A stretch of DNA of 57,267 nucleotides, taken from positions 1-57,267 of the IMG/VR virus record IMGVR_UViG_3300043398_000440; one strand, written 5' to 3'. The position numbers and the translations under genes are program-made. Origin of the DNA: a virus. Shown here piece by piece: positions 4,013 to 56,152 of the stretch (within the stretch, counting starts at the first letter, position 1; every line of letters begins with the position of its first letter). The notes beneath the pieces were generated by a model. It saw only the letters and a program-made list of their open reading frames with translations. It had not been told where the DNA came from and did no database searches.

Positions 4013-4023
4013 GGAGCATGTGG

Positions 4024-4425
4024 ATGGTAATCGACGCCAGCCCTACCGATCTCAAAATCATCAGCCTGGTATGGACCGATGTTGAGGCGCTGACCGATGA
4101 CGGTCTCGATGGCGTGTTGGTGTCGGTAAAGGTAGGACATCAACACTTCAATGACGCACAGCGCAAATTTCTGGGGGCGTGTCAACAAAAAAGTGACAAA
4201 TCTTTTGAGGTTGTATTGCGTCCACTCACAAGTGGTGCTTTATACCTCACGTGCTTACACGAAATCGGCCACGTGCTCGGTCTAAAACACACACAACGTG
4301 GCGTAATGATTGCGGCTTCTCGACATCGCCAGATACCGCTAACGCCAGAGCGCCGCCGTCGCTGGCTGCGTGATTTCGGTCGGCAGCTGCTAGACCTTCG
4401 TCTGTCGCAACTAAATAATATGTAA
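4024..4425 (+). CDS. small matrixin-type zinc metallopeptidase
   Basis: The 133-aa protein contains HEIGHVLGLKH, an exact metzincin/matrixin zinc motif (HExxHxxGxxH), followed by GVMI as a short Met-turn. It is predicted to hydrolyse peptide bonds with one zinc. It is much smaller than secreted matrixins and has no signal peptide, so it should act in the cytoplasm. I chose the ATG at 4024 because AGGAG (4012-4016) is seven bases away; the ATG at 4018 is only one base away. A second metallopeptidase gene follows, suggesting an early takeover or counter-defence role by inference. Confidence 0.7.
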   Translation: MVIDASPTDLKIISLVWTDVEALTDDGLDGVLVSVKVGHQHFNDAQRKFLGACQQKSDKSFEVVLRPLTSGALYLTCLHEIGHVLGLKHTQRGVMIAASRHRQIPLTPERRRRWLRDFGRQLLDLRLSQLNNM

Positions 4426-4450
4426 TCACTCATGGGCGTGTTCCATACAT

Positions 4451-5107
4451 ATGATGACACAGTGCGAGCAGTACCTACACTTCATTCGTGACTGGTCCCT
4501 GAATCATGGCGGCCATAATACTACACTAGGCACTCCACTTCCAATTGGCAATGACCTCACCTGGTCAAGTATCGGTCAGGCGGCAGCGAAGTTGCGCCTA
4601 CCTGACGGCAGTCATGCCGTTTCTGAAATCCTGCCGGACGCCAAGGCTTCGGGCCTAATCAAAGATTTCTGGACGGCGGGCAGCTACCAGCCGGCGACGC
4701 GCGTGATTCACGTCGGGGCTCGTGAGGTGCACGACCGATCGCTGAGCACGCTGTTTCACGAGCTGGCCCATGCGATGCTGCATCACGACATCGACGATGC
4801 GCAGTACCGCACGAACCAAGTGTGGATCGAGGCTGAGGCGGATGTATGCTGCGATTTAGTGCGGTGCTTGCTTGGCGCCGGGCCGCGCCACGAAACTCTA
4901 CGAACACTGCATTACATGGGCAATGTCGGCGATGTGGCCGCGTTTTACCACTTCGCAGGCGATGCGCTATGCGTGGCCGCGTGTGCGATTGCGCGGGCAC
5001 TAGCCCCTTGCATCCGCTTTGGTAGTGTGTTAGCTAGCCCGGCAGGAGACACAAATGGCAAAATCCAGCCGACGTACCGAGAAAAAAGTTATCAACCTCA
5101 GCCGTAG
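4451..5107 (+). CDS. ImmA/IrrE or ArdC-type metallopeptidase
   Basis: The 218-aa product carries TLFHELAHAMLHH, an HExxH zinc motif, and a downstream EAEADVCCDLV helix that supplies the third ligand in ImmA/IrrE and ArdC C-terminal peptidases. The strand before the motif (VIHVGAREVHDRSLS) also fits that family. ImmA enzymes cleave repressors and ArdC-like proteins block restriction; which applies here cannot be told. The last 50 bases overlap the next gene, which has its own good ribosome binding site, so the true C-terminus may be shorter. Two tandem ATGs (4451, 4454) are possible starts. Confidence 0.7.
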   Translation: MMTQCEQYLHFIRDWSLNHGGHNTTLGTPLPIGNDLTWSSIGQAAAKLRLPDGSHAVSEILPDAKASGLIKDFWTAGSYQPATRVIHVGAREVHDRSLSTLFHELAHAMLHHDIDDAQYRTNQVWIEAEADVCCDLVRCLLGAGPRHETLRTLHYMGNVGDVAAFYHFAGDALCVAACAIARALAPCIRFGSVLASPAGDTNGKIQPTYREKSYQPQP

Positions 5108-7701: not shown

Positions 7702-8220
7702 ATGGACACACCTACCGCCAGTACAGAGCCCGTCATCCAGGATCTGGCGCCCGAAGACAAAAAACTTGTCTGGCCAGACGCAGCCGCGTTCATGGACGAC
7801 GAAACCTCAGCCGAGGCAATAGCTTTGGCGGCGGTCGAAATCCTCTCAGTGCTGGAGCACATCAACCGGGCAGTAGTGAAGTGCGCGGGCAGCGTCCTGC
7901 CACTTGGCGTGAAGATGGCGTTCATCAAGAAAACACGCAACGCGGTCAACCAGCTGTACCTGGGCGTGCCTAACCAACAGGTGTTGGCGGTTGAAGCCCT
8001 GGTCGCGACTGAGTTGTTCGGCGACCAAGCCCAAGAAATTGTCGGTGGAAAAGAGAACGTTGACGCCACCAGCCCAGAGGTGATGGCGCCGAGCTACGGC
8101 GATCCAGACGCGTTCACGGGCAACGGGGGAGTAGTAGCAACTGGTAAAACGTCGGCTTCCAATCCCGAAGTTGCGGGTTCGAATCCCGAATCCCCCGCCA
8201 TGCCGGAGTACCCGCAGTAG
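7702..8220 (+). CDS. hypothetical protein reading through a tRNA gene
   Basis: The 172-aa frame begins MDTPTASTEP after an AAGGAA-type site. Its central part (AIALAAVEILSVLEHINRAV and FIKKTRNAVNQLYLG) is helical. From about residue 142 it is simply a translation of the tRNA-Trp gene (SNPEVAGSNPES). The functional protein therefore probably ends near the tRNA, or the tRNA is processed from its 3' coding end. No family recognised. Confidence 0.55.
   Translation: MDTPTASTEPVIQDLAPEDKKLVWPDAAAFMDDETSAEAIALAAVEILSVLEHINRAVVKCAGSVLPLGVKMAFIKKTRNAVNQLYLGVPNQQVLAVEALVATELFGDQAQEIVGGKENVDATSPEVMAPSYGDPDAFTGNGGVVATGKTSASNPEVAGSNPESPAMPEYPQ
8125..8200 (+). tRNA. tRNA-Trp (CCA) with encoded CCA end
   Basis: GGGGGAG (8125-8131) pairs with ATCCCCC, with one mismatch, followed by G and an encoded CCA (8198-8200). 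The T loop is GCGGG-TTCGAAT-CCCGA. The anticodon loop TTCCAAT has CCA at 8159-8161, with the stem TCGGC/CCCGA. The whole gene lies inside the 3' end of the preceding frame. Confidence 0.82.
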
Positions 8221-8324
8221 CGATGGCAGCCAATTCTCCAAACGGCCGCGCTGTTTACAAATCAGTCAGTGCAGCGTTTTTGCTTGGCGACCAGACAGAT
8301 TTTCACTGACCCAAGGAGTTTTTC

Positions 8325-8465
8325 ATGACGCAGCACCAAGCAGTTCTAGCCCTCATCGAACTAACCACAGCATTGCAAGTGCTCAATGAGCTACCCACTG
8401 ATTCCAGTGTGCGGCAAAACTATGTAAAACTGCTTAGTATTCTATTTCGGGTTGCTGGTGTGTAG
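8325..8465 (+). CDS. small hypothetical protein, 46 aa
   Basis: A short frame begins MTQHQAVLALIELTTALQVL and ends RVAGV. It is predicted to be two amphipathic helices. It has an excellent AAGGAG eight bases from the ATG, the main reason to call it. It is six bases upstream of the next gene, so probably co-transcribed. Confidence 0.6.
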   Translation: MTQHQAVLALIELTTALQVLNELPTDSSVRQNYVKLLSILFRVAGV

Positions 8466-8471
8466 GCAGGC

Positions 8472-9419
8472 ATGATAGTATCAAACGATGAGTTCAGGGC
8501 AATCTGCTCCAGTCTTGCCCCGCTAGTCCAGCAGGCGCGCGAGCTAAGTGTCACCCTGGCAGCCGAGCAGCTTGCTCTGGACCGGCGACATGAGACCATC
8601 TTCGTCGCCACACGCAGCACAGGCAAAACCGCCATCGGCCGCGCCAGCAAGTTTGGCAGCGACCCGACCATTTGCGAGGTCGGCGGCTACTTTGACGCGC
8701 AAGGCGGCGAGACCCTGCGCGCACTGGAAAAGACCCTCGCAGCCATGCTCAAGGTGTATCGCGAGCAGCGCGCCATCATGCCCAAGTACCGGCCAAAGAT
8801 TTTCCTGCGTTCTGAAACCTGGGCGCAGCTCAAGCCGCGCTTTCACTGGGTCGATCAGCATCAGGTTGCCGAGATTGAGTTTCCACGCAACCTCTTTTAC
8901 CAGGCATTACAGCATCTGGGCGCGCCCGACGCCGCGCTTGCGTTCTTTGGTCCTGCCTGGCTGGAGGGCTGCCAGGACTCGACCGGACGACTGCTGCCAG
9001 GGCTGGCATTTGACGCGCTGGAGCACGCGATCGGGCAACCCGAGCTACGCGGCACCTCAGCTAAATGGCAGGGCCACGCCCACGCAGCAGCTAAACACAT
9101 TCAGTCGCAGCCCGATCTAGCCTTTTGGTTGCCGTACTTAGCTCCAGCCGACAAGCACGTGTACAGTCACGATGCTAAGCTAACAATCCCGCTAGAGCGC
9201 ACTTTGGAGCGGATACGTTCAGGGAGACAAGCGCGGCAAATACCGGAGCTACCGTACGGAATGACTGGCCCACAGTTCGTGAAGCACTTAGAACACGCAG
9301 GTGTGTGGCATCAGAACAACAAAAAATTTCTTGAGTGGGCGAGACCTTACGCGGTCGGTGCAACTTTTCTGAAATCTAACTTGACGGCTGATGCCTTGAG
9401 ACGTATGTTACAGGAATGA
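8472..9419 (+). CDS. hypothetical protein, 315 aa
   Basis: The protein starts MIVSNDEFRAICSSLAPLV. It is helical at the N-terminus, with mixed Trp/His-rich segments (FHWVDQHQVAEIEFP, WLPYLAPADKHVYSH). A sequence TRSTGKT near residue 49 looks like a P-loop but lacks the surrounding fold signals. No family recognised. It overlaps the serine recombinase by four bases (ATGA), so the two are translationally coupled and may work together. Confidence 0.6.
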   Translation: MIVSNDEFRAICSSLAPLVQQARELSVTLAAEQLALDRRHETIFVATRSTGKTAIGRASKFGSDPTICEVGGYFDAQGGETLRALEKTLAAMLKVYREQRAIMPKYRPKIFLRSETWAQLKPRFHWVDQHQVAEIEFPRNLFYQALQHLGAPDAALAFFGPAWLEGCQDSTGRLLPGLAFDALEHAIGQPELRGTSAKWQGHAHAAAKHIQSQPDLAFWLPYLAPADKHVYSHDAKLTIPLERTLERIRSGRQARQIPELPYGMTGPQFVKHLEHAGVWHQNNKKFLEWARPYAVGATFLKSNLTADALRRMLQE

Positions 9420-31275: not shown

Positions 31276-33429
31276 TTACGTCAGTTGGGCGCGGCGCCAA
31301 CCACCGTTCATCCACGCATATAAATAATACGTACCTGTAGCCATTACTTGGCCACCGAAAGTGACGTTGCCGGAAGCGTTGTTTTCTACTAAAACGGTTT
31401 GGCCAGAGACTCCGTTTGAAGTAGTGATTGTATAGGTAGTACCTGTGCAAATTACACTTGGCGAATTAGCCGCCCACGTGTCGGCACCGCTGAACGAAAG
31501 CGCGTTGATATACGCGTTAGTTGCCATTATCAGGCGCCACTCACTGTTGAAAAACACATAGTGAGCCATGCCGTATTGACTTAACGTGACTTTGGCGATA
31601 CCGTTGATCAGGGACGGTGTAACTGTTGCTGCGGTGCTTGCAATGTTAAGAATGTACTTGTGTTGCTGTTCGACACCGTCAGCCAGTGTCATGGCCAAAG
31701 ACGCGCCATTCAGAATCGTGTAGGTTTTTACGACTGAAACGGCGCCGCTAGAAGTAAGTGTTTCCACGTCACCAGTCGTAGCGATGCAACGAGTGCCTTG
31801 AACCAACCGCCACTCACCGCTGAAAAATACATAGTGCGCGGCTCCATACTGCAGGAGCTTCACAACGTTGTTACCGGCTGCCGTGGCTGGGGTGACTGTG
31901 GCGGTTGTGGACGCAATGTTGACGACGTATTTCTGCTGGTGCTCGACACCGTCAGCCAGTGTCATGGCCAGCGTTGACCCGTTCAGGATCGTCATCGACT
32001 TCACTACTGAAATCGCGCCGCTGCTGGTGAGGGTTTCTACGGCCCCCGTGGTGGCGACACACCGCGTGCCTTGAATCAACCGCCACTCACCACTCATGAA
32101 CATGTAGTGCGCAGCGCCGTGTTGCAGTAGTTTGGCGACGTTATCACCAGCTGCTGTGGCGGGAGTGACTGTGGCAGTCGTCGCATTGATATTGACGATG
32201 TATTTGCGTTGACCTTCGACACCGTCAGCTAAGGTCATTGCCAACGTGGAGCCGTTCAGGATCGTAAAGTCTTTAACCACTGAAATCGCGCCATTGGAAG
32301 TCAGTGTTTCGCTCGCCGAACTCGCCACTGCACGAACAGCCAGCACCAGTCGCCATTCGCCGCTGAAAAACACGTAGTGCGCCATGCCGTGTTGGAACAG
32401 CTTCACCACGTTATCGCCAGACGCTGTGGCTGGTGTCACTGTGGCAGTCGTCGAGGCAATGTTGACGATGTATTTCCACTGCCCCTCGACACCGTCAGCC
32501 AATGTCATGGCCAGCGAGCTGCCGTTCAAAATCGTGTAGACTTTGATCGTAGATACCGCGCCGCTGCTGGTGAGGGTTTCACCAGACCCAGCATTAGCCG
32601 CGTGTGACCTGCGTCCAAGTGACAACCGCCACTCACCACTCATGTACACGTACGTGACCATACCGTGCTGATACAGGGTTGCTGTGTTGTCGCCCGCCGC
32701 AGTCGCCGGAGTGACTGTAGCATTGGTTGCGTTGATGTTGACGATGTACTTAACTTGGCCTTCGAAGCCGTTAGCCAACGTCATGGCCAGTGAGGAGCCG
32801 TTGAGAATTGTGAGCGTAGTAGTGAGTGCAACTGCGCCGCTGGAGGTCAGGGTTTCCGAGTATACGTCAGACAGCGCACCTGAGGCGGGCGATAACCGCC
32901 ATTCGCCGCTGATGAACGTGTACTCAGCCTGACCGTACTGATTGATTCTGGCAGTGTTGTACCCCGACGTAGTCGCTGGAGTGACTGTAGCCACGGTCGA
33001 GGCAATGTTGACGATCCACTTTTGCTGACCTTCGACGCCATCCGCCAAGGTCATGGCCAAGGATGAACCGTTCAAAATGGTCAGCGAGGTCGCGACCGAA
33101 ACCGCTCCGCTGGACGTCAGTGTTTCAGTCGACGTGAATCGCGCAACAGTTGGAAACTCGACGCGATTACCGGTATCGACTTTGACGATGTTCACGTCAG
33201 CCGAGCCAGCTGCGTTCAGCGCTCGCAGCGCCTCGTTGTTGGCCAGCCGGATTTTGGCACCAGTCACCGCATTGGTGGCCAGCGCGGCTGTCGCGATTGC
33301 CAACCCCTTGCCGCCACCCGTGTGGTCGTGCGCGCTAATTTTGAGGTCTTTAGTGGCTTCTGTTACGTCCCAGTCGGTATCACCTTTATCAGGTGACGTA
33401 AAATTTAAGCCGGATGTGTATGAGGGCAT
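31276..33429 (-). CDS. tail fibre built of six tandem modules
   Basis: The 717-aa protein has a roughly 100-residue N-terminal region with DHTGGGKG (common in phage fibres and appendage proteins). Six modules of about 91 residues follow, each beginning ETLTS(S/N)GA and containing TILNG(S/A)(S/T)LAMTLA and (S/N)SEWRL or SGEWRL. A divergent tip ends GGWRRAQLT. It probably forms trimeric appendages that bind the host. Module count could change by recombination between repeats. Confidence 0.75.
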   Translation of the reverse strand: MPSYTSGLNFTSPDKGDTDWDVTEATKDLKISAHDHTGGGKGLAIATAALATNAVTGAKIRLANNEALRALNAAGSADVNIVKVDTGNRVEFPTVARFTSTETLTSSGAVSVATSLTILNGSSLAMTLADGVEGQQKWIVNIASTVATVTPATTSGYNTARINQYGQAEYTFISGEWRLSPASGALSDVYSETLTSSGAVALTTTLTILNGSSLAMTLANGFEGQVKYIVNINATNATVTPATAAGDNTATLYQHGMVTYVYMSGEWRLSLGRRSHAANAGSGETLTSSGAVSTIKVYTILNGSSLAMTLADGVEGQWKYIVNIASTTATVTPATASGDNVVKLFQHGMAHYVFFSGEWRLVLAVRAVASSASETLTSNGAISVVKDFTILNGSTLAMTLADGVEGQRKYIVNINATTATVTPATAAGDNVAKLLQHGAAHYMFMSGEWRLIQGTRCVATTGAVETLTSSGAISVVKSMTILNGSTLAMTLADGVEHQQKYVVNIASTTATVTPATAAGNNVVKLLQYGAAHYVFFSGEWRLVQGTRCIATTGDVETLTSSGAVSVVKTYTILNGASLAMTLADGVEQQHKYILNIASTAATVTPSLINGIAKVTLSQYGMAHYVFFNSEWRLIMATNAYINALSFSGADTWAANSPSVICTGTTYTITTSNGVSGQTVLVENNASGNVTFGGQVMATGTYYLYAWMNGGWRRAQLT
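31486..33126 (-). repeat. six tandem ~273-bp coding repeats
   Basis: The six modules are similar but not identical at DNA level, with the conserved blocks TILNG, AMTLADGVE and GEWRL spaced regularly. The most similar neighbours are modules 4 and 5 (both with TRC.ATTG linkers), suggesting recent duplication. Confidence 0.85.
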
Positions 33430-33431
33430 GC

Positions 33432-34022
33432 CTAACCTTCGCTAAGGAACCGGTTGATCACCGAAATCGGTATCAGAATCCCGAACGTGACCTTTTGTGT
33501 TCCTACTGAATAGACGAAATAGCCACTAACAATGCCCACCAGCTTGCCGTGGTACACGCCAGGACCGCCGGAGTTTCCGCCCACCACGCGGCCGTCGAAC
33601 ATCATCACGCGGCACGGCGGCAGGCCGGTTTCTGCTAGTTGATCGTAGCTTGACACCAGGGCGCTGTTGGTTTTCAGCGACCTGCCGCCTGGGTAACCTT
33701 GTATAACGAACGGCTCGCCTTCCTCAGGATCGACATCCGACAACCCAATCGGCTGCACGCTCAAGCACTGATACACCAGCTCCAGCAACGCCAAATCGAC
33801 ATCTGCCTTGGTTTTGACCACCAGGGCGGGGGTCAGGGCATTGCCGCAGCGTACAAACGCAAGAGAACCTCGATCAGCCACTGCGTGGGCGGCGGTCAGT
33901 GCCCAGCTGGGCGCCAGCAGGGTTGCGGTTGCGATGACCCGCTCCTCGCGGTTGATGACGGGCAGCGTGTGGTTGGCCAGCGAAATGGCGAAGGATGCGA
34001 CCAAGGCGAGTAGTGTGGTCAT
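33432..34022 (-). CDS. exported trypsin-like serine protease
   Basis: The 196-aa protein starts MTTLLALVASFAISLANH, a signal-peptide-like sequence. It has LTAAHAV (catalytic His), VDLALLEL (Asp) and GNSGGPGVYHGKLVGIVSG (Ser and oxyanion hole), the order of chymotrypsin/Do-type proteases. No PDZ domain follows. Such exported proteases are unusual in podovirus structural blocks. It could mature virion proteins, act in the periplasm, or affect competing phages. It is three bases upstream of the fibre gene. Confidence 0.78.
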   Translation of the reverse strand: MTTLLALVASFAISLANHTLPVINREERVIATATLLAPSWALTAAHAVADRGSLAFVRCGNALTPALVVKTKADVDLALLELVYQCLSVQPIGLSDVDPEEGEPFVIQGYPGGRSLKTNSALVSSYDQLAETGLPPCRVMMFDGRVVGGNSGGPGVYHGKLVGIVSGYFVYSVGTQKVTFGILIPISVINRFLSEG

Positions 34023-34052: not shown

Positions 34053-34577
34053 CTAGTGCAACAAAATTCCGCTACAAAATACGTCTTGCGCTGCCGCTAG
34101 CCCGCCAAGCTCGTCGATCAGCTGCTGTGGGGGGCTCGGCGCGTGCGTGGCGTGGTTATACATGACTGAGTCTGGGTCTTTATTTTGCGCCAGTCCCGTC
34201 ATCCACCCGATGAAGCCGAGCCATACGCGGCCGATTTCGTCCGGGGTGGCGTTCTGGTAGTCGGGCGAAAACACCCAATCGTAGTGCGTCACCGTGGGTC
34301 GGCCAAACGCCAAGGCTGCCACAGGCATCTCGGCTACTGGGAGCCACAGCACGCGCACCTGACGCTCGTCGGCGCCGTAATTCACTGTGGTGCAGCCTAG
34401 TAGTTCATCTAATTGGGCGGTATAGCCACGCATTGCAGCTTCGCCTGGCTCATACACAGGGTTGACTAGTTGTACAGAAAGCGGAAACGTGAAATACTTC
34501 GCTGGCTGGGATTCGCCGCACCCACAGCAGCTAAACAACGCCGCCAACGCCGCCAACGCCAGCCACCGCGAGCGCAC
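34053..34577 (-). CDS. lipoprotein resembling a catalytically dead matrixin
   Basis: The 174-aa protein begins MRSRWLALAALAALFSCCGC, a signal peptide with a lipobox-like LFSC. Near the C-terminus, VWLGFIGWMTGLAQ then DPDSVMYN aligns with the matrixin zinc motif and Met-turn (HEIGHxLGLxH then DPDSVMYP). All three His and the Glu are replaced (G, F, W, Q). It may be a membrane-attached binding protein derived from a protease. A perfect dispersed motif (34116-34133) reads PPQQLID. Confidence 0.6.
   Translation of the reverse strand: MRSRWLALAALAALFSCCGCGESQPAKYFTFPLSVQLVNPVYEPGEAAMRGYTAQLDELLGCTTVNYGADERQVRVLWLPVAEMPVAALAFGRPTVTHYDWVFSPDYQNATPDEIGRVWLGFIGWMTGLAQNKDPDSVMYNHATHAPSPPQQLIDELGGLAAAQDVFCSGILLH
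34116..34133 (+). repeat. dispersed motif in the lipoprotein gene
   Basis: GATCAGCTGCTGTGGGGG, read on the minus strand as P-P-Q-Q-L-I-D, a different frame from the T-A-V-A copies. Confidence 0.7.
34519..34536 (+). repeat. dispersed motif near the lipoprotein start
   Basis: CACCCACAGCAGCTAAAC, opposite in orientation to the copy at 34116 in the same gene; it overlaps the lipobox codons. Confidence 0.7.
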
Positions 34578-34579
34578 GG

Positions 34580-35026
34580 CTAGCGCACTCGCCGGGCCGA
34601 AATACGCCCATAGGCAGCCGGCGCACCCACCGTAAAGGTTTCTGAAGCTACCAGGTAGTGGGTCGTTGTTGCGCTCAATGAGACGCGCACCGTAGGAATC
34701 GTAAGCGTTACATCGGCCGTTGCTGACGAAACTGTGGGAGTCTGAATACGTGTATCACCCAGCACAGTGCCCGTAAACGAGTTGTTGGTGGTGCCGATCG
34801 CAGCGTCAAAAAGCGTTCCAGTTGCCACACCTGTGCTGGCGCATACTGCGGACACATCCCAATCTCCAGCCGTGAGCGAGATAGATGTTACAGACAGAGG
34901 TGTCGCAGTTGTCAGGGCGGCTGCTGAGCCCTGCACAACCGAGGCGGTGATCAGCTCGCCAGGATCTCCCGCAGCAGCTGAATCATTAGTGGTGGAGACA
35001 GAGCATGCTCCGCGAGTTTTTGCCAT
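34580..35026 (-). CDS. virion protein with fibre-tip-like beta fold
   Basis: The 148-aa protein begins MAKTRGACSVSTTNDSAAAG. It is beta-rich with SISLTAGDWDVSAVC and ends APAAYGRISARRVR, like the tip of the protein at 6663-7238. Probably a decoration or receptor-binding component. The ATG at 35026 was chosen over an in-frame TTG at 35044. Confidence 0.55.
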   Translation of the reverse strand: MAKTRGACSVSTTNDSAAAGDPGELITASVVQGSAAALTTATPLSVTSISLTAGDWDVSAVCASTGVATGTLFDAAIGTTNNSFTGTVLGDTRIQTPTVSSATADVTLTIPTVRVSLSATTTHYLVASETFTVGAPAAYGRISARRVR

Positions 35027-35028
35027 GA

Positions 35029-35934
35029 TTAGGTCACCGTCCAAGTGCCGACAACGGACTCGGCCAGCCAGGTTGTTGCATCAACCGCCGTTAGCCAAAG
35101 CACGTTTCCAACCACTGCGCTTTCAGCGTATCCAGCTACTGCGCTGACGTTGCTGCCGACGCGAATTTCGTCACCCGCCGCCGCGAGTACCCGAAAATTT
35201 TGTGCTGTCATAACACCAAGTCCTACGCGTAGTCCCGCAACAGCAGTTACTAGCGAGACGATGACTTGTCCGGCGGCCCCAGAATTAGTAAACAGTGTTC
35301 CGGTATCGCCGGCTTGAATTGATGCACCGACGTATGTGTAATCGCCTGTTTTCGCGGCGACTGGTCGCTGCTGCCTGGTTGCCCCTAGGTATGCCGCAGA
35401 ACTACCAAAACCGAGTAGTGTATTGGTGCTCGCAGCCACGACCGTTACACAGTCAAAAGTTAGCGCATTAGCGGTATAAATTTCTCGATTGCCGGCGGTA
35501 GCACTGCCTCGCCACGGCAAGTCAGACACCATCTGCCAATTATCGGCGTAGCCCGTGGCGAAAATGGAATCCTGCATGGTAGCGCCCATGCACACAAACT
35601 GTATGGTTGCGCCGTTTCCAATGCCGATTTCGGTTACCAACGCCCCAGGATTCATTATGATACCGCCAATTGGTGGATAAACTTTGATCACTGCGCCGGC
35701 GGCATTTGTTGAGTTGTTGCGAACTCTCCACACCTCACCAGCCGGACGACCCGCCGGTAACCGCACACCCTGTCCAGTTGTTCCAGAAATTACGAACGTG
35801 TTAGGCCCTGGTAATTCAACCGCTGTGAGCTGAGTTGACCCAGCAGGTACACAAAACTGAATTCCTAGATTCGTCGGCTGCGTAGCCGATGGCCCTACAT
35901 CTGTAGGTCTTTGCGGTGAGCGTGCAAACGACAT
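35029..35934 (-). CDS. virion-region beta protein
   Basis: The 301-aa protein begins MSFARSPQRPTDVGPS. It is largely beta strands rich in Ala, Gly, Thr and Val (VRLPAGRPAGEVWRVRNNST). No family recognised. Position among small structural genes suggests a head or tail accessory protein. The upstream ATG at 35964 lies inside the preceding gene. Confidence 0.55.
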   Translation of the reverse strand: MSFARSPQRPTDVGPSATQPTNLGIQFCVPAGSTQLTAVELPGPNTFVISGTTGQGVRLPAGRPAGEVWRVRNNSTNAAGAVIKVYPPIGGIIMNPGALVTEIGIGNGATIQFVCMGATMQDSIFATGYADNWQMVSDLPWRGSATAGNREIYTANALTFDCVTVVAASTNTLLGFGSSAAYLGATRQQRPVAAKTGDYTYVGASIQAGDTGTLFTNSGAAGQVIVSLVTAVAGLRVGLGVMTAQNFRVLAAAGDEIRVGSNVSAVAGYAESAVVGNVLWLTAVDATTWLAESVVGTWTVT

Positions 35935-55885: not shown

Positions 55886-56152
55886 ATGGAAGCAATCTTG
55901 ACCTGCTTAGGGCTTACGCTCGGCTACATGATTCTGACGCGCACCGATTTGATCAAGGCGATCCGCGCACTGCTAGGGCTGCTTACATTCGGTGTAAGCA
56001 TCAGCGGCTGTGCCCACATGACTCAGGCTGACCACGCCGCATGGGCGGCTGCCATTCGCGCAGCAGGCAACCAGATCGCCAACAACCCATACCGCCCCAC
56101 CAACTGCACCAGCCAAGTGATTGGCGGAACGGTCTACACTACATGCCAATGA
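55886..56152 (+). CDS. small membrane protein or lipoprotein
   Basis: The 88-aa protein begins MEAILTCLGLTLGYMILTRT, with a second hydrophobic stretch (LLGLLTFGVSISGCAHM) that ends in a lipobox-like ISGC. The Cys/Asn-rich end is probably periplasmic. GGAGG lies upstream of the ATG. Unknown role. Confidence 0.55.
   Translation: MEAILTCLGLTLGYMILTRTDLIKAIRALLGLLTFGVSISGCAHMTQADHAAWAAAIRAAGNQIANNPYRPTNCTSQVIGGTVYTTCQ

Follow-up and report, generated by a model that had tools for sequence, protein, structure and literature searches.

A small gene in a viral genome raises the question of whether a protein that resembles a matrixin, with every zinc-holding residue exchanged, is a true relative of these peptidases, and what a phage would do with it. 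The window analysed is the whole of IMG/VR record IMGVR_UViG_3300043398_000440, a viral sequence of 57,267 bases. We read the gene at 34053-34577 as encoding a metzincin-fold pseudoprotease lipoprotein, probably lipid-anchored and acting by binding, and put the probability of this reading at roughly 0.6.

Gene position and export signal

The open reading frame lies exactly where the first-pass annotation had placed it, and the matrixin-like residues quoted there are present in its translation (Table 1). The gene belongs to a long minus-strand structural block containing terminase, portal and major capsid protein genes followed by tail-fibre-like genes, and its start codon comes directly 3' of the stop of a phrog_11393-type gene. 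This is the position beside receptor-binding or tail-fibre genes that is typical of Llp/Cor-type genes. Codon bias was gene-like in this frame (0.175 bits per codon), of the kind found in the phage's structural genes, and negative in the five other frames. The gene was absent from the nearest relative phage found (L002, major capsid protein 81% identical), where the downstream trypsin gene is kept and nothing stands in place of the lipoprotein gene; syntenic copies sought in other relatives by major capsid protein gave no match. A 717-aa fibre-like protein with about six 90-aa repeats (ETLTSSGAVS...ILNGSSLAMTLADGVEGQ...) was also observed at 31276-33429(-).

Table 1. Coordinates of the features discussed, as positions in the window
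Feature	Position	Strand	Remarks
Candidate pseudo-metzincin lipoprotein gene	34053..34577	-	174 aa, GTG start; open reading frame, codon bias, metzincin tests
Putative lipoprotein signal peptide	34527..34577	-	Lipobox L14-F15-S16 then C17; sequence reading and regex scan
Cys62	34392..34394	-	Just after predicted helix A
GFIGWMTGLAQ, residues 121-131	34185..34217	-	Position of HEXXHXXGXXH; helix B and its end (model)
DPDSVMYN Met-turn, residues 134-141	34155..34178	-	Met139
Cys168	34074..34076	-	C-terminal
Tail-fibre C-terminal-type gene, upstream	34580..35044	-	phrog_11393; gives tail-fibre context
Trypsin-like serine protease gene, next downstream	33432..34022	-	Trypsin_2, 6e-13; possible partner

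The N-terminus of the protein, MRSRWLALAALAALFSCCGCGES, reads as a plausible lipoprotein signal, with a basic n-region and hydrophobic stretch (MRSRWLALAALAALFS) ahead of a cysteine within the 15-35 range. The lipobox LFS-C17 stands after MRSRWLALAALAAL and bears out the earlier claim of a lipobox signal, C17 being the residue that would carry the lipid. This lipobox fits the permissive PROSITE lipoprotein rule, Phe at -2 being tolerated without being the most typical residue. With a plausible lipobox, lipidation and anchoring in the envelope are probable. Cys62 and Cys168 may pair in a disulfide, as judged from an alignment in which the intact phage lipoprotein L172 has a cysteine at both places.

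Similarity to metzincins

GFIGWMTGLAQ, NK and DPDSVMYN follow one another in exact register with HEXXHXXGXXH plus the Met-turn. Within this stretch His/Glu/His/His are replaced by Gly/Phe/Trp/Gln and the structural I-G and G-L pairs are retained, so that neither the Glu nor any of the three His remains, as had been claimed. From Q131, at the position of the third ligand, to Met139 the distance is 8 residues, as in matrixins and in phage metzincins with DPxSVMY. An alternative register over DEIGRVWLG (residues 113-121), which would keep a Glu, was rejected; its distance to the Met-turn is wrong by 8 and profiles favour the other register. The HEXXHXXGXXH motif was absent from the protein, and no HExxH was present in any frame of the gene, which rules out a frameshift as the explanation for its absence. 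More than one base must change for each of three of the four substitutions (His to Gly, Glu to Phe and His to Trp), several in every case, yet the frame has remained open and gene-like, a combination that suggests an old loss of the zinc site in a gene that has been maintained. With such a sequence, zinc-peptidase action by the matrixin mechanism is excluded, and from the loss of all ligands we infer that the protein neither catalyses nor binds zinc. Classifying it among the matrixin peptidases would be wrong, since the defining motif was looked for and is absent.

No match to the protein was found in Pfam, PHROGs, NCBIfam, PADLOC or PDB sequences, and PF00413 gave no M10 match at E values up to 10. 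Protein and alignment queries against phages, plasmids, viral contigs and genome contigs likewise found no homologue; one match in a Pseudomonas phage was meaningless, lying on the strand opposite to the annotated genes. Selection on the gene is thus unmeasurable from the collections searched, and the link to metzincins rests on the motif region and an alignment-guided fold. The same phage does encode an intact matrixin motif, as the first-pass annotation had noted: the protein at 4018-4425(+) carries HEIGHVLGLKH and scored 25.8 bits against Pfam Peptidase_M10 (cut-off 24). This intact M10 metzincin has no signal peptide and is directly followed, within 4018-5107(+), by an M78 (ImmA/IrrE-type) metallopeptidase.

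The motif skeleton by itself can arise in unrelated proteins. Among 2.9 million viral contigs the bare pattern IGxxxGLx8VMY was observed in 38 stretches, some 27 of which belong to unrelated proteins; this corresponds to a chance of about 1e-5 per contig even before DPxS is considered. Besides such chance matches, motif-skeleton scans of IMG/VR returned about 20 true metzincins, all with HEXXH.

We compared the protein with an HMM profile of 15 phage lipoprotein metzincins, none of them chosen by its own Met-turn. Unmasked, the profile gave 6.9 bits, a score reached by 3 of 5000 shuffled sequences. Masking the four catalytic columns raised it to 20.5 bits, which none of 5000 shuffles (best 9.4) and none of 826 control ORFs reached. 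When the masked profile was run over all loci retrieved (5,846 ORFs), the protein was its best match among ORFs without HExxH (E 3.5e-4). The N-terminal half alone carried no signal (-0.5 bits, with 1264 of 5000 shuffles as good), and the intact M10 protein of the same phage likewise lacked one there (-1.7). A hhalign comparison with a similar set of 14 phage metzincin lipoproteins was colinear over 108-110 columns, covering residues 30-145. Its unmasked score was 26.7 (best of 120 shuffles 17.8), and one control ORF, itself with an HExxH motif, was higher at 29.2; masked, the score was 30.9 against 15.3 for the best shuffle and 19.9 for the best of 359 control ORFs. Masked HMM and hhalign thus agree that, the zinc residues apart, the similarity to metzincins exceeds chance. 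The first-pass annotation had suggested seeking homologues that retain the zinc site: no direct homologue was found in the collections searched, and it is the masked profile of phage metzincins that recognises the protein. Three other comparisons were set aside: a first profile gave a good score, but its members had been picked with the Met-turn of the protein itself, and it was dropped as circular, a generic unmasked metzincin profile placed the protein at noise level, and an N-terminal likeness to the L075 family, good by eye, failed the profile test.

The predicted fold was compared with matrixins, as had been proposed. A single-sequence model was uninformative (pLDDT 36) and had no metzincin match. 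With 18 aligned phage metzincins an AlphaFold2 model reached pLDDT 74 and pTM 0.72, and its elements followed the metzincin order: a strand precedes helix A (pLDDT about 93), and further strands lead to helix B, the Met-turn and finally helix C. Foldseek placed only metzincins among the top 50 PDB matches of this guided model; most were MMP catalytic domains, and karilysin came first (E 4.7e-3, probability 1.00, TM 0.5); across the karilysin and MMP matches probabilities were 0.95-1.00, with Foldseek E values of only about 5e-3 and TM-scores of about 0.5. Matches in the viral library BFVD were led by viral matrix metalloproteinases. The agreement with solved metzincins is supporting and not independent evidence, since the metzincin rows of the alignment partly impose the fold. 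Neither an unrelated fold nor a missing link to zinc peptidases, the outcomes named beforehand as telling against a matrixin without zinc ligands, was seen in the guided model and the masked profile. We consider the metzincin relationship and the zinc-site loss supported by these sequence and fold tests, and, as far as sequence can tell, the resemblance to matrixins is more than chance.

Metzincin lipoproteins in other viral contigs

Scanning viral contigs for HExGHxLGLxH returned many more metzincins than the motif-skeleton scans, and a lipobox was present in 26 of 141 metzincin-motif ORFs (loci L047-L199). Intact metzincin lipoproteins are thus a recurrent class in viral contigs, and they look under-described. 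Examples such as L172, L139/L156, the L158 pair, L123 and L199 share with the 34053-34577 protein a lipobox, a single metzincin domain, the G-L pair, the Met-turn and a small size (about 130-210 aa), and some also have a Cys after helix A. They differ in keeping HEXXHXXGXXH, whereas our protein has no ligand and no significant pairwise homologue among them. Two adjoining lipoprotein metzincins with both zinc sites intact were also observed at L158:5488-6679(+), on a 240-kb viral contig.

Decay of the zinc site has a second example in locus L157, where two lipoprotein metzincins lie in tandem (7759-9083(-)), one intact (HELGHALGLGH, TVMY) and one degenerate. The degenerate copy (8385-9083(-), lipobox LAGC) reads RELGHELGLPS, with the first and third His lost and the Glu and second His kept; its ORF, taken as 8388-9137(-), was the other HExxH-less match of note among the 5,846 ORFs (E 0.011, masked profile) and is 25% identical to its adjoining intact paralogue (BLASTP E 6e-13). 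Judging from sequence, the contig also has apparent thymidylate synthase, thymidylate kinase and methylase genes, as phages do. This degenerate protein likewise combines a viral contig, a lipobox and a broken zinc site, and differs from the 34053-34577 protein in having lost only two of the three His and in having an intact paralogue beside it. By this reading, zinc-site loss is found in at least two unrelated-looking places among phage lipoprotein metzincins. The first-pass annotation had regarded a phage-encoded, surface-anchored pseudoprotease as new, which holds in part: intact phage lipoprotein metzincins recur, and L157 carries a partly dismantled copy. The 34053-34577 protein is best described as a variant of these recurrent lipoproteins, and together with the L157 tandem pair they make the question testable beyond one orphan gene.

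Candidate roles and alternative explanations

As proposed, the 34053-34577 protein would be exported through the host Sec pathway and probably sits in the infected cell's envelope by a lipid anchor. The metzincin fold would be kept, from helix A through the sheet and helix B to the Met-turn and helix C, while Gly, Phe, Trp and Gln would occupy the face that otherwise carries the zinc ligands. This predicted fold, the Met-turn and the I-G and G-L spacing are shared with matrixins (karilysin and MMPs, MEROPS M10A), but these have zinc ligands and a catalytic Glu, and propeptide or hemopexin parts where our protein has a putative lipid anchor. Since the scaffold is retained behind an export signal and lipobox, the protein most likely works by binding at the envelope; binding, target, lipidation and localisation are all features that we infer. 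Catalytically dead ADAMs are comparable in having a metzincin domain without catalysis and a binding function, and differ in being eukaryotic and multidomain (PMC11266112). Dead metalloproteases with binding roles are thus already known from animals; no phage case turned up in a keyword search of that review of inactive metallopeptidase homologues (PMC11266112), nor in the literature consulted.

The single most likely role, held tentatively and by analogy, is superinfection exclusion: an envelope receptor would be blocked or distorted, so that further phage would fail to adsorb, as with T5 Llp and Rtp45. Receptor blocking leads as a functional guess because the gene follows tail-fibre genes, much as T5 llp is 'adjacent and downstream to pb5', the receptor-binding protein gene (PMC9586334); exclusion by Rtp45 acts similarly, on LptDE (PMC12685063). 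T5 Llp, T1-type Cor and Rtp45 are likewise phage lipoproteins (PMC9586334, PMC12685063), but they are far smaller, have no metzincin domain or shown relation to our protein, and have a demonstrated function where that of the 34053-34577 protein would follow by analogy.

The main rival function, next after receptor blocking and somewhat less probable, is a partnership in which the dead metzincin would serve, in the envelope, as tether, inhibitor or chaperone of the exported trypsin-like protease encoded next to it. The protease gene follows downstream after a gap of 30 bp, and its product has a start resembling a signal peptide as well as intact His, Asp and Ser motifs. A precedent exists in Listeria Mtz/Tim, the only study of phage metzincins that we found, where a phage-derived metzincin and lipoprotein can act together as a pair at the cell envelope, Mtz cleaving Tim; that pair differs in that Mtz is an active, secreted enzyme and Tim is TIMP-like instead of a dead metzincin (PMC8235301). 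Against such a partnership, L002, which holds the only relative of the protease found in viral contigs, keeps the trypsin gene without the lipoprotein gene, so the protease does not need the lipoprotein, and at the other loci the metzincins showed no trypsin-like neighbour.

We consider it improbable that the gene is a decaying remnant, a once-active phage lipoprotein metzincin that lost its active site and has no current function. Its single occurrence, with no homologue found and no copy in the close relative L002, would fit such decay, but the frame is full-length and gene-like in codon bias, the signal peptide and both cysteines are present and the Met-turn is perfectly kept; moreover, the multi-base substitutions amount to more drift than in a recent pseudogene, with no frameshift or stop. 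A comparably low probability goes to chance, that is, to a small phage lipoprotein of other descent with a helix and a turn that fit the matrixin pattern by coincidence. The bare pattern does arise in unrelated phage proteins, and the missing unmasked family match, the silent N-terminal half and the alignment-guided nature of the AlphaFold support would all be expected under chance; the masked-profile and hhalign scores nevertheless lie above all shuffles and, once masked, above all control ORFs, colinearity spans the full domain, and the size, signal and gene class are those of real phage metzincin lipoproteins. A hydrolase holding metal through new ligands, such as H142 and H145 (YNHATHAP) just after the Met-turn, is highly improbable, given that on the helix that would face the metal none of the canonical ligands is left, nor the general-base Glu, and that the bulky residues Phe and Trp are among the replacements; no metzincin is known to use a metal site of this kind.

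If the pseudoprotease reading is true, a matrixin scaffold with a refilled zinc site would be a fold reused for binding in the contest between phage and host. It is possible, though speculative, that metzincin lipoproteins have been recruited by phages to the host envelope time and again and that some lineages (this phage and L157) have turned them into binding pseudoproteases, an undescribed class of effector; such envelope effectors could, for example, block adsorption or act as decoys that engage proteases of the envelope. The same phage may encode a second lipoprotein, a small ORF of 67 aa with a lipobox (SGC) at 55949-56152(+).
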